Shown here: piece after piece, positions 7,798 through 29,455 of the stretch | Numbering within the stretch: position 1 is the first letter of the stretch | Layout of the letters: each line of letters starts with the position of its first letter | Assembly (NCBI GenBank): GCA_026393175.1 | Contig: JAPLAT010000396.1 | Coordinates: 1-33,103, forward strand | Direction: 5' to 3' | DNA from: Pseudonocardiales bacterium | GTDB lineage: Bacteria; Actinomycetota; Actinomycetes; Mycobacteriales; Pseudonocardiaceae | Length of the DNA: 33,103 nt | Translations under genes and position numbers: made by a program | The notes under the pieces: generated by a model | The model's database searches: none | Told to the model about the DNA's origin: nothing | What the model saw: only the letters and a program-made list of their open reading frames with translations

Positions 7798-7820
7798 AAC
7801 TTCTACGACGCTTAGTAGAT
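7798..7820. promoter_or_regulatory. Island operator site A (23-bp inverted repeat)
   Basis: Left half AACTTC at 7798-7803, an 11-bp spacer beginning T and ending A, right half GTAGAT at 7815-7820. It matches the eight-member family found across the island. It lies just upstream of the Lnt-DUF3105-BNR operon. It is very similar to site B, sharing CTAC, ACGC and TAGTAG in the same register. Confidence 0.6.
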
Positions 7821-7894
7821 GATGAGGGCCGAATCGACCCCAGGAGGACCTCATTCGTTCCGCTACGACCTCGTCCTCCGCTGCTCCTCCGAGC

Positions 7895-9355
7895 GTGGCG
7901 TCCCCGCCCGGTCCGGTGCTGTCCGGTCCGCTCGCCGGAGTCGCGGCCGCGGTCGCCGGTGTGCTGTGGGTGCTCGGGTCCTCGCCTCGCGAGTGGTGGC
8001 TGCTGCTCCCGCTCGGCGCCGCCGTGCTGACGGTCGCACTGCAGGGACGGACCGCGCGTGGACGGTTGCTGACCGGCGCGGTCGCTGGAGCCGTGCTCTA
8101 CGGGATCACGCTCGGCTGGATCGGCGGGTTCTCGATCGCCGGGTACCTCGGGATCGCGTTCGTGGAGACGCTCATGCTGGCTGCGGCGGTGGCGCTGGTA
8201 CCGGCGACCCGGCCGGGGGGGCGGTGGACGTTGCCCGCGGCGCTGGTGCTGCTGGAGGCGGCGCAAACCCGGTTCCCGTTCGACGGGTTCCCGCTGCCGG
8301 CGCTGGTGCACTCCCAGCTCGACGGGCCGTTTGCAGCTGCCGCTCCGCTCGGTGGGTCGCTGCTGGTCACGGCGTGCGCCGCGACGGCCGGGGTCGCCCT
8401 GGCAGCGCTCGTTCAGGCGCGGGGACGCTCCCGGATCCGCGTCGTGGCATTGACGGTCGCCGTGGCCGTGCTCCCGATCGCCGTCGGCGCGACGATCCGC
8501 ACGACGGACACCGGGACGCTGGATGTCGCGGTCGTGCAGGGTGGGGGCCCGCGTGGCCTGCGGGCGGTGTTCACGAACCCGCAGGACACCACGGACCGGC
8601 AGTTCAGGGTGGCCGAGCAGATCACGGACTCTCCCGATCTGGTCCTGCTCCCCGAGACCGTGATCAGCGTGACCGGCACGGTGGCCGGCTCCGCCGGCGA
8701 CCGCCGCACCGCCGAACTGGCCCGGAGGCTGGCCGCCGCTGTCGTGGTCGGGGTGGTGGAGAACCAGGGCGCCGGGTTCCGCAACGCTGCCGTGCTGTGG
8801 GGGCCGGACGGGGAGATCCTGGGCCGCTACGAGAAGGAGCACCGGGTTCCGTTCGGTGAGTACATCCCTGGTCGTGAGCTGCTCGAACGGCTCACGGACC
8901 TGACCGCCCTCGTCCCTCGGGACGCGATCCCCGGCGAGGGCACCGCGTTGCTGGCCTCGCCGCTCGGGCCGCTCGGCGTCGTGATCTCCTACGAGGTGCT
9001 CTTCGCCGACCGCGTGCGGGAGGCCGTCACAGCAGGCGGCGAGATCGTGCTCGTGCCCACCAACGCCGCGTCCTACGTCACCGAGGACGTCCCGGCGATC
9101 GAGGTCGCCGGCGCGCGGATGCGGGCCCTGGAGTTCGGGCGCACGGTGCTCCAGTCCGCCCCCACCGGCTACTCGGTCATCGTCCTTCCCGACGGGCGGG
9201 TCCTCGAGCAGAGCACGCTCGGCGACCCGGCGCTGCTGCGGGCGCCCGTGCCGCTACGCACCGGTCTGACGCCCTACGCCCGCAGCGGGGACCTTCCCGT
9301 GCTCGCCCTGGCCGCTCTGGCTCTGCTGGTGCCGGTGCTGCGGAGGCGACGGTGA
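7895..9355 (+). CDS. lnt: Apolipoprotein N-acyltransferase (Lnt) homologue
   Basis: Membrane enzyme of the Lnt family, which transfers a fatty acyl chain to the N-terminal cysteine of lipoproteins. About six N-terminal hydrophobic helices precede a nitrilase-like domain and a final C-terminal helix. Numbered from GTG 7895 (486 aa), the catalytic Glu is E254 (LLPETV) and the Lys is K314 (YEKEHRVPFGEY). The nucleophile position, normally ICYE, reads ISYE with S365. The GTG has no ribosome binding site. An AGGAGG at 7842-7847 sits 5 nt before an in-frame ATT at 7853, which would add 14 residues; this may be the true start. The gene begins an operon with a DUF3105 gene (4-bp overlap) and a BNR-repeat lipoprotein gene, behind operator site A. 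Acyl transfer with Ser in place of Cys is unproven here. Confidence 0.88.
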   Translation: MASPPGPVLSGPLAGVAAAVAGVLWVLGSSPREWWLLLPLGAAVLTVALQGRTARGRLLTGAVAGAVLYGITLGWIGGFSIAGYLGIAFVETLMLAAAVALVPATRPGGRWTLPAALVLLEAAQTRFPFDGFPLPALVHSQLDGPFAAAAPLGGSLLVTACAATAGVALAALVQARGRSRIRVVALTVAVAVLPIAVGATIRTTDTGTLDVAVVQGGGPRGLRAVFTNPQDTTDRQFRVAEQITDSPDLVLLPETVISVTGTVAGSAGDRRTAELARRLAAAVVVGVVENQGAGFRNAAVLWGPDGEILGRYEKEHRVPFGEYIPGRELLERLTDLTALVPRDAIPGEGTALLASPLGPLGVVISYEVLFADRVREAVTAGGEIVLVPTNAASYVTEDVPAIEVAGARMRALEFGRTVLQSAPTGYSVIVLPDGRVLEQSTLGDPALLRAPVPLRTGLTPYARSGDLPVLALAALALLVPVLRRRR

Positions 9356-27784: not shown

Positions 27785-29303
27785 ACGACACCACCGTCAT
27801 CATGCCTGCCTCACCGTGATAGACGTTGTGGCAGTGGGTCAGCCACTGCCCCGCGTTGTCGGCGTCGAAATCGACGACGAGCGCCTGGCCGGGAAGCACG
27901 ATCGCGGTGTCCTTGCGCGGGCCGGCCCCGGCCGGCCCGCGAATCTGGAATGTGTGCCCGTGCAGGTGCATCGGATGGAACATCGTCGTGGGGTTCTCGA
28001 AACGCAGCCGCACCCGTTGCCCCTCACGGACGGACACGCCGAACGCCGGGTCATAGGTGCGGCCGTTGATCGTCCAGGTGTAGCCGGGCTCCGGTCCACC
28101 GAGCGTCATGGGGTGCACGACGTCGGGCTCGAGGGCGGGCAGGGCGACGGATTCCGCGGCCGGCAGCTCGTTCACCGCCGTGACACGGCTCCCCAGCAGG
28201 GCGATGACCGCCGCGTTCACGTCCGGCGCCGCTTCCGGGCCGGGCCGCAGCACCACCTGCGTGACCCCGTCCTTGCCCTCGGCAAGACCCAGCAGCGGCA
28301 CCACCGAGTCCGCCACCTCGACCACCGCGTCGACGCGCTCACCCATACCGAGCAGCACCGCCTCGGCCGGGGTCGGCACAACGGGGAACCCGTCGGTGTG
28401 CGTGACGATCATCGGTGTACCCGGCACACCGACCCGGAACGCGGTGTCACCGGACGCGTTGATCAACCGCAACCGGATCCGCTCACCGGGCCGCACGTCC
28501 ACGGCGCGCGCCGCGTCGGCGGTGCGCCCGTTGGCCAGGAAGTACGGGTAGGTGACGTCCCCGGCGTCGCCACCGAGCAGGTCGGACCGCGGCATCACCA
28601 TGCCGCCCATGCCGCCCATGCCGCCCATCCCGCCCATGCCGCCCATCCCGCCCATCCCGTTGGTGAGCAGGTCGACCAGCACCTGATCGGGGTCGCTTCC
28701 GGTCCCGTCGAGCCAGTCGTCGAACATGACAACCAGCTCCTGGTCGTAGTCCCCTGGCTCATCCGGGTCCTCCACCACCAGCGGCGCATAGAGGCCCCGA
28801 TCGAGCTGCACACCGACGTGCGGGTGGAACCAGTAGGTGCCGGCGTCGGGAACCGTGAACGCGTAGTCGAACGTCGCGGCCGGGGCGATCTCCGGTTGAG
28901 TGAGGGCAGGTACCCCGTCCATGTCGTTGCGCAACGCGAGCCCGTGCCAGTGCACGGTGGTGGGCTGGGGCAAGGCGTTCCGCAGCCGGACCTGGAGCAG
29001 GTCACCGCGGCGGGCCCGGAGTTCGCGGCCCGGGAGCTCGCCGCCGTAGGTCCACGTCGGGACGGTCGTTCCGCCGAGGTCGATCTCGCCGGTGGTGGCG
29101 TCGAGCATGACGTTGACGGTGCGCCGGCCCGGGCGGATGCGGGCCTGCTCCCTCTGCAGGATTCGCGGGGAACCCGGTCCAATCAGGGTGGGCGGTGCGG
29201 CCGGGGCGGCGCAGCCGGCAAGCAGTGCCGTCCCGGCACCAGCGGAGAGCGCCAGGAAGCGCCGGCGATCCAGCGCCGGTAGCAGGAATGGCCGTTGGGG
29301 CAC
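27774..29303 (-). CDS. Multicopper oxidase lipoprotein (CueO/CopA-like) with Gly-Gly-Met repeats
   Basis: A 509-residue three-domain multicopper oxidase. It has a Tat-like DRRRFLALSAG start and lipobox LLAGC (C31). Copper ligands are all present: HWH at 118-120, HPH at 160-162, H443-P-M-H446-L-H448, and H490-C-H492 with H496 and axial M501. Residues 217-237 are a run of Gly-Gly-Met repeats, resembling Met-rich copper-binding inserts of CueO-type cuprous oxidases. The likely reaction is oxidation of Cu(I) to less toxic Cu(II) outside the membrane with oxygen. GTG 29303 is preceded by AAAGGA. First gene of an operon with the ferric-reductase-like and rhodanese genes; operator G is upstream. Confidence 0.93.
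   Translation of the reverse strand: MPQRPFLLPALDRRRFLALSAGAGTALLAGCAAPAAPPTLIGPGSPRILQREQARIRPGRRTVNVMLDATTGEIDLGGTTVPTWTYGGELPGRELRARRGDLLQVRLRNALPQPTTVHWHGLALRNDMDGVPALTQPEIAPAATFDYAFTVPDAGTYWFHPHVGVQLDRGLYAPLVVEDPDEPGDYDQELVVMFDDWLDGTGSDPDQVLVDLLTNGMGGMGGMGGMGGMGGMGGMVMPRSDLLGGDAGDVTYPYFLANGRTADAARAVDVRPGERIRLRLINASGDTAFRVGVPGTPMIVTHTDGFPVVPTPAEAVLLGMGERVDAVVEVADSVVPLLGLAEGKDGVTQVVLRPGPEAAPDVNAAVIALLGSRVTAVNELPAAESVALPALEPDVVHPMTLGGPEPGYTWTINGRTYDPAFGVSVREGQRVRLRFENPTTMFHPMHLHGHTFQIRGPAGAGPRKDTAIVLPGQALVVDFDADNAGQWLTHCHNVYHGEAGMMTVVSYVQ
28603..28665 (-). repeat. 9-bp tandem repeat encoding Gly-Gly-Met units
   Basis: About seven head-to-tail copies of a 9-bp unit (CATGCCGCC or CATCCCGCC on the plus strand) inside the multicopper oxidase gene. 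Each encodes one Gly-Gly-Met triplet. Because the period is a multiple of three, copy-number change would keep the frame and alter only the number of Met residues. Confidence 0.75.
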
Positions 29304-29432
29304 GCGGTCGTCCTTTCGCCTTCATCCTGATCGGCTGGCGAACGCGGAACCTGGGCGCGACCGCAGGTTCGCCCCGCGGTCGGTCCACCGGAGCTCGCCT
29401 CCGGCCGGGTCCGCCACTACTGCCACTGCAAC

Positions 29433-29455
29433 TACTACTGACTAACATAGTAGAA
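29433..29455. promoter_or_regulatory. Island operator site G in a divergent promoter region
   Basis: Left half TACTAC at 29433-29438, 11-bp spacer beginning TGA and ending A, right half GTAGAA at 29450-29455. It sits in the 216-bp gap between the multicopper oxidase operon (minus) and the second Lgt-like gene (plus). The spacer offers -10-like TAACAT on one strand and TATGTT on the other, so one bound repressor could close both promoters. Confidence 0.65.

Follow-up and report, generated by a model that had tools for sequence, protein, structure and literature searches.

Dispersed inverted repeats as candidate operators of a BlaI repressor encoded in an actinobacterial copper and envelope gene island

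Results

Eight inverted repeats and the genes around them

The stretch analysed here, referred to as the window, comprises 33,103 nucleotides from a Pseudonocardiales bacterium and is the entire contig JAPLAT010000396.1 (C355 of assembly G000; 5,547,723 bases in 712 contigs). It contains eight copies of a 23-bp inverted repeat, dispersed among copper, redox and envelope genes and around a gene pair encoding a BlaI-family repressor and a membrane metalloprotease. Site 7798 (7798 to 7820) lies about 75 bp upstream of the gene for Lnt, apolipoprotein N-acyltransferase (7895 to 9355, + strand), which is followed on the same strand by genes for a DUF3105 protein (9352 to 9966) and a BNR-repeat protein (9982 to 10815). 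Site 10844 (10844 to 10866) precedes a + strand run consisting of TlpA, CcdA/DsbD_TM (a weak match, below cut-off) and a second TlpA (10864 to 13012), the BlaI-family repressor (13043 to 13465) and an M56/M48-type membrane metalloprotease of 314 aa with an HERAH motif (13462 to 14406). Site 16119 (16119 to 16141) stands upstream of a − strand unit encoding an L,D-transpeptidase (YkuD; 15630 to 16202, its true start probably below 16119), a DUF6153 protein (15156 to 15614) and a DUF305 protein (14464 to 15096). Site 18282 (18282 to 18304) is a dyad within a hairpin between convergent genes and a doubtful operator, possibly a terminator or decoy. Site 19938 (19938 to 19960) separates the divergent genes of an NlpC/P60 (RipA-like) protein (18599 to 19900, − strand, under the curated cut-off) and the frame at 20012 to 21133 (+ strand). 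Site 24492 (24492 to 24514) is found about 75 bp upstream of an M23 peptidase gene (23533 to 24417, − strand), and site 24719 (24719 to 24741) upstream of the frame at 24849 to 25214 and of Lgt (25260 to 26579, + strand). Site 29433 (29433 to 29455) lies between a − strand unit for a multicopper oxidase, a ferric-reductase-like protein and a rhodanese (26664 to 29303) and a divergent second Lgt gene (29490 to 30812, + strand), with weaker copies in the adjacent registers 29415 and 29430.

The original prediction of eight 23-mers with an 11-bp spacer held at every position: all eight are present, the first spacer base is T in seven and the last is A in six, and the right half reads GTA in all eight and is followed by G in seven. 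Their symmetrical consensus is ACTACT-N9-AGTAGT, equivalent to TAC-N11-GTA. With up to two mismatches, this dyad was matched 8 times in the window (including the overlapping registers 29416 and 29431), whereas 100 dinucleotide shuffles averaged 0.06 matches and never gave more than 1; sites 19938 and 24492, with three mismatches each, fall outside that count. Scored with a matrix from which it had itself been left out, each of the eight sites reached 14.5 to 28.9 bits, with 24492 lowest at 14.5 and 19938 also weaker at 15.5, and the best non-site position across the eight runs reached 6.8 to 10.1 bits. The looser pattern ACTAC-N11-GTAG gave 66 matches at up to two mismatches vs a shuffle mean of 27.6, and the longer dyad was preferred for counts. 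The eight sites are real.

Nor are the closest matches to the motif scattered at random over the assembly. All four places with at most one mismatch lie inside the window, as do 8 of the 44 with at most two. A reversed-pattern control exceeded the real pattern, both in the assembly (187 vs 44 at up to two mismatches) and at G000 in a genus-wide search (13 vs 4); this excess was taken as a codon-composition effect (TGATGA/TCATCA), a judgement on which opinions may differ, and the control was left unused. Among the 36 out-of-window places with two mismatches, the best matrix score (20.5 over 21 positions) belonged to G000:C360:2538 (locus L208), the next best being 17.2. On the opposite strand this place ends 24 bp upstream of an ATG with GGAGG, which opens a 213-aa frame with WCGPC that reads as a putative TlpA-like lipoprotein. 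An Rfam search returned no matches, and a sigma-70 promoter scan of positions 16000 to 30000 found none.

A total of 35 window open reading frames (ORFs), a subset of all frames, were scanned against Pfam. The repressor matched PF03965 with 81.6 bits (cut-off 22.6), and its best solved relative is 2g9w, which we take to be Rv1846c of Mycobacterium tuberculosis. A contig search with the window BlaI returned two loci. The adjoining protease scored 22.9 bits against PF05569 (below the cut-off of 31) and 38.8 bits against PF01435 (above 20.3), and Pfam matched no penicillin-binding domain in its 314 aa. LysR-type regulators bind a T-N11-A pattern; neither LysR nor the GntR/YtrA families had a match among the scanned ORFs. 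Further genes of the island encode a ZIP-like protein (22706 to 23425, + strand, under cut-off) and an OmpR-type response regulator (30845 to 31570, + strand). A kinase label for the protein at 31592 to 32605 was dropped, since neither Pfam nor NCBIfam gave a match. The two Lgt genes are 73 to 75% identical in DNA across three stretches (including 25868 to 26374 against 30095 to 30604) and probably arose by duplication. At the left end of the window, an AAA/OLD-like TOPRIM gene is followed by one for a UvrD-like helicase (135 to 3538), an arrangement that we take to resemble the Gabija defence pair, and positions 3716 to 7252 encode a Kelch and galactose-oxidase-like E-set protein matching the GlxA radical copper oxidase model with 208 bits, below its cut-off of 800.

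Seven sites are promoter-proximal and one lies within a hairpin

The sites had been predicted to be intergenic and, for the most part, to sit before transcription units. Placement before a unit was borne out for seven of the eight, 18282 being the exception. As for intergenic placement, site 16119 falls within the L,D-transpeptidase ORF when this is read at its longest, and site 10844 shares bases with a GTG at 10864; homology puts the transpeptidase start beyond the site, and an in-frame ATG at 10891, preceded by GGAGG, is the likelier start of TlpA.

Site 18282, the sole site in the window with zero mismatches to the symmetrical consensus, begins 34 bp beyond the stop of a + strand gene ending at 18248, and on its other side is the 3′ end of the − strand gene at 18599 to 19900. 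Since it is embedded in a 15-bp perfect stem (minimum free energy −26.9 in 51 nt) at the 3′ ends of convergent genes, it may be a terminator hairpin, and the claim that all eight sites are operators could not be upheld for it. The hairpin went undetected in a terminator scan that demands a T-rich tail and allows loops of up to 8. The site is missing from the related genome G027, where 25 bp separate the ends of the corresponding gene matches. It is also conceivable that some or all of the repeats are transcription terminators or other hairpins; besides 18282, an exact match at 9960 in locus L052 is likewise a long perfect palindrome, and the 19938 stretch folds at −22.6, there through other pairs. 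The other seven window sites lose complementarity in or just past the half-sites and are located upstream of genes. Spacers vary between the window and G027 while half-sites are kept, and 37 of 41 positions in the plasmids described below fall at most 350 bp upstream of a start codon. We consider this explanation extremely improbable. Leaving 18282 out of the matrix did not weaken the plasmid result (36 positions of at least 20 bits in eight islands vs 0).

Overlapping sites 15 bp apart were seen at 29415/29430 of the window, at 16475/16490 and 22352/22367 of L218 and at 19917/19932 of L220. Because the members of each pair have a half-site in common, they suggest half-site arrays for more than one dimer.

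The sites are conserved at orthologous promoters

The window was compared with a 53-kb stretch of G027, joined from three consecutive pieces. Six of the eight sites recur there at orthologous promoters, namely those of Lnt, TlpA, the L,D-transpeptidase, the M23 peptidase, the homologue of the gene at 24849 and the multicopper oxidase. Over these six sites, half-sites are identical at 67 of 72 positions, as against 30 of 54 in the spacers, 7 of 12 at the edge positions and 160 of 360 in the ungapped flanks, as illustrated by the pair TACAACTgtttgggTACGTAGTT (window) and TACAACTgcccaagTACGTAGTT (G027). In the counterpart of site 16119 the half-sites are retained and the spacer is altered. This conservation agrees with the view that the sites form a regulon.

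The position of the sites would allow BlaI to control its own gene. In the window, site 10844 precedes the gene run that holds blaI. In both G027 and G001, the M23 site lies between the M23 gene and a divergent blaI-M56 pair and is therefore directly upstream of blaI; a site directly upstream of blaI was also found in L219, L221, L223, L224 and L225.

The response regulator at 30845 to 31570 is another conceivable binder, as in copper two-component systems. It is encoded within the island, a homologue in L062 has a site 50 bp upstream, and response regulators are annotated in some of the plasmid islands. In the 53-kb G027 stretch, which keeps six sites, it had no match at E ≤ 1e-6, so it is not needed for the existence of the sites. 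A response regulator is annotated in 3 of 8 plasmid stretches (the PLSDB gene tables are incomplete), while all 8 carry sites of at least 18 bits. OmpR-type regulators, moreover, generally recognise direct repeats rather than inverted ones. With no match in G027 and no annotation in five of the eight plasmid stretches, the response regulator was judged very unlikely to be the binder.

Linkage to blaI and candidate operator types across the genus

PF03965 was matched in 59 of 62 genomes of the genus, very probably Pseudonocardia, and the motif with at most one mismatch was found in 46 of 62, giving at least 74 motif places (all in G001 to G049, with those of G000 excluded). Among the 74 listed places, 21 are of the CTAC-N5-GTAG type and 53 are not. 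The eight CTAC-N5-GTAG-type places within the fetched motif loci are all at cydA. Of the 53 listed non-N5 sites, 13 have a listed blaI at most 15 kb away, where 0.55 would be expected (binomial P value, 8 × 10−15), in keeping with the earlier proposal of BlaI as the natural candidate regulator. Outside G000, four exact matches are listed, at distances of 0.9 to 4.8 kb from blaI.

The regions upstream of blaI were analysed with 122 BlaI hits in the fetched loci (the 30 returned plus chosen ones, a part of all PF03965 hits; duplicate L094 was dropped). The 350-bp stretches upstream of these hits contain 50 copies of CTAC-N5-GTAG (44 loci), and the other 1.157 Mb contain 9. CTAC-N4-GTAG, which has the canonical TACA-N2-TGTA spacing, was absent from the same 350-bp upstream regions. 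In a FastTree phylogeny, the chromosomal BlaI clade carries TTCTAC-N5-GTAGAA 28 to 76 bp upstream of the domain and other clades show an N6 spacing. CTAC-N6-GTAG dyads were observed upstream in L121, L122, L125, L165, L166 and L169, in three of them as pairs 24 bp apart. The clade of the window BlaI (support 0.99; L048, L049, L062, L130, L133, L139 and L147) carries the ACTACT-N9-AGTAGT type.

Exact TTCTAC-N5-GTAGAA is present in 59 of 62 genomes, usually in 2 or 3 copies. When one locus per genome was taken for 30 of the 59 genomes, 12 were at cydA and 10 at blaI, in 2 the box lies between the two genes in divergent orientation, and the other 6 are at neither gene. In Pseudonocardia cydA promoters (L026, L030, L178, L189 and others), tandem dyads about 18 bp apart were seen, ACTTCTAC-N5-GTAGTAGT and TTCTAC-N5-GTAGAA, and in L179 and L191 (around 1456 to 1553) blaI and cydA are divergent, with boxes common to both. 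PMC5473688, citing Sala et al. (2009), reports that M. tuberculosis BlaI binds the cytochrome bd and ATP synthase promoters. That the cydA boxes agree with this supports a reading of CTAC/GTAG dyads in these bacteria as BlaI boxes.

Counted from the dyad centre, the chromosomal and island boxes share T-8, C-6 and T-5; the chromosomal box adds A-4 and C-3, and the island box adds A-10, C-9 and A-7. The prediction of BlaI-type TAC/GTA half-sites is thus supported in the common centre and half-site letters, and not in the spacing, since N11 is not the canonical TACA-N2-TGTA arrangement. The candidate BlaI operators are clade-specific, and the same dyad centre and common letters suggest one repressor family that shifts its contacts around a fixed centre.

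Related islands on plasmids of other genera

A tblastn search with the window BlaI returned 100 plasmid records, and 8 of 20 listed BlaI-homologous stretches were taken, 28 kb each (Mycolicibacterium 3, Rhodococcus 4 and Mycobacterium 1). Annotated among the eight were BlaI in 8, M56 in 7, a multicopper oxidase or CopC in 8, TlpA in 6, DUF305 in 6, M23 in 5 and L,D-transpeptidase in 4. A matrix built from the window sites only found 31 positions of at least 20 bits vs 0 in the reversed sequences, 41 vs 3 at 18 bits and 56 vs 9 at 15 bits. Positions of at least 18 bits occur in all eight stretches; all 41 are intergenic, where intergenic bases make up a fraction of 0.246, and 37 fall at most 350 bp upstream of an annotated start. 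In copper islands of other genera, too, the sites accompany blaI. The sites of these plasmid relatives come close to TACTATG-N3-CATAGTA, and the commonest form contains TACTAT on both strands.

Because the first plasmid set had been chosen by BlaI, a second set selected by DUF305 was added (10 of 40 listed stretches; 220 records in total). Two of these contain BlaI, with 2 positions of at least 20 bits in L234 and none in L227, and the eight without BlaI have one such position in all. L231, L233 and L235, from Micrococcales plasmids, were observed to carry a cluster of DUF305, F510_1955 and four-helix copper protein genes, with no BlaI and no positions of at least 18 bits. Searching 298 genomes of the order for the motif first (TACTATG-N3-CATAGTA) gave 4 places in 3 genomes, and all three 20-kb stretches around them contain BlaI and M56 homologues; a differently spaced pattern gave 1 place in 1 genome, with no BlaI in 20 kb.

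The gene content of these islands also bears on the signal. BlaI might bind the sites and the regulon nevertheless respond to cell-wall or beta-lactam stress, not to copper: classical BlaI systems respond to beta-lactams, and the candidate targets include the L,D-transpeptidase, the M23 peptidase, the NlpC/P60-like protein and lipoprotein enzymes. The 35 scanned window ORFs gave no match to a beta-lactamase or penicillin-binding protein, the M56 protease has no penicillin-binding domain match, and a multicopper oxidase or CopC is annotated in all eight BlaI-selected plasmid stretches. A cell-wall signal therefore appears unlikely, although it deserves to be taken seriously.

Discussion

A proposed BlaI-controlled copper and envelope regulon

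The repeats are in all probability operators of the island's own BlaI (13043 to 13465), which would silence the copper and envelope genes of the island. The motif is conserved at orthologous promoters, in the assembly its closest matches are confined to the island, and it is linked to blaI. Beyond these observations, binding and repression by BlaI, the protease step and the signal are inferred. A BlaI dimer would bind ACTACT-N9-AGTAGT, overlapping or adjoining each promoter, and would keep the island silent, its own blaI-M56 genes included. Occlusion of RNA polymerase would be the simplest mode of repression, because TACTAT on both strands of the commonest plasmid form fits the −10 element, whose consensus is TANNNT. 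By analogy with characterised systems, the sensor-less M56 membrane protease may relay a cell-envelope signal and inactivate BlaI, upon which the genes for the multicopper oxidase, Lnt, Lgt, TlpA/CcdA thiol-redox proteins, L,D-transpeptidase and M23 peptidase would be released together. Given the nature of the target genes, the signal would most likely be copper or copper-caused oxidative or disulfide damage.

Several observations weigh against this interpretation. For forty of the 53 listed non-N5 sites there is no listed blaI in the surrounding 15 kb on either side; many of these are expected to be chance background, because a 12-letter pattern with 1 mismatch should occur about once per genome by a rough hand estimate. 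The blaI genes beside some of the sites encode members of other BlaI clades, and the L052 site, although an exact match near blaI, is a long perfect hairpin like 18282. Within the same clade as the window BlaI, the 12 kb of L147 hold no site of at least 17.5 bits, and such sites are also missing from several neighbouring clades. The eight plasmid islands were selected by BlaI homology and so are a test of the motif but not of whether it requires BlaI. In the DUF305-selected set, the Streptomyces stretch L227 reaches only 19.3 and 17.9 bits despite its BlaI, and positions of 25.2 bits (L232, with no BlaI in 28 kb) and 18.6 bits (L229) occur in stretches without BlaI. The TAC-N11-GTA geometry differs from the TACA-N2-TGTA published for BlaI and CopY, and the copper signal is deduced from gene content.

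A wider scheme can be put forward tentatively, and we hold it to be possible rather than probable. A mobile copper and envelope regulon might be spread over plasmids and islands of Pseudonocardia, Rhodococcus, Mycolicibacterium and Mycobacterium, with a sensor-less BlaI-M56 pair as its master switch. Paralogous repressors might be kept apart by shifted registers about a common dyad centre, with TTCTAC-N5-GTAGAA serving the chromosomal respiratory BlaI and ACTACT-N9-AGTAGT the island BlaI. The hybrid cydA site ACTTCTAC-N5-GTAGTAGT might be readable by both, which would link cytochrome bd, an oxidase free of copper, to copper stress.

We rate the operator variant and the regulon as new and the repressor family as known; in the titles and abstracts of the best-ranked open-access papers, no BlaI regulon of actinobacterial copper islands was found. 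The BlaI/MecI/CopY-M56 pairs of such islands thereby gain a concrete operator and target list. The proposed operators also predict how paralogous BlaI repressors escape cross-talk, and the signal of a sensor-less BlaR-type protease becomes directly testable with a clean multi-promoter read-out.

Comparison with known systems

The M. tuberculosis BlaI (Rv1846c) system resembles that of the window in its BlaI-M56 pair, with an M56 protein lacking a sensor domain (PMC5473688, PMC5874750 and PMC7924339), and its reported binding to cytochrome bd and ATP synthase promoters (PMC5473688) parallels the Pseudonocardia cydA box. Unlike that regulon, the candidate targets in the window are copper, redox and envelope genes of an accessory island, with no beta-lactamase in the scanned ORFs, and the island operator differs in register from the chromosomal box. 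The staphylococcal BlaI/MecI-BlaR1/MecR1 systems likewise combine a penicillinase-repressor domain, TAC/GTA inverted repeats and an M56 protease partner. Unlike them, the island has no match to a beta-lactam sensor domain or beta-lactamase in the scanned ORFs and has TAC-N11-GTA in place of TACA-N2-TGTA; in these respects it does not resemble a beta-lactam switch of the staphylococcal type.

CopY/CopR share the Pfam family, copper-related targets and dyad operators at promoters (PMC7253601). The cop operator is given there as RNYKACANNYGTMRNY, from which the window sites differ in spacing. The window BlaI scored 29.1 bits against the CopY_TcrY equivalog model (cut-off 121.95), and no C-terminal Cys-X-Cys was found in it, the sole cysteine being residue 4 of the longest reading, with none in the domain or C terminus. 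CopY membership was rejected on the score, the missing Cys-X-Cys and the operator spacing.

Clostridium thermocellum BlaI_0696, as described in PMC8457756, also has a small autoregulated regulon, with inverted repeats five nt apart and ordered multi-protomer sites. It differs in its half-site, GTCTAT, and in the three non-coding sites reported for it, as against seven promoters here. The regulon described here separates the BlaI-M56 pairs of copper islands from beta-lactam and CopY systems.

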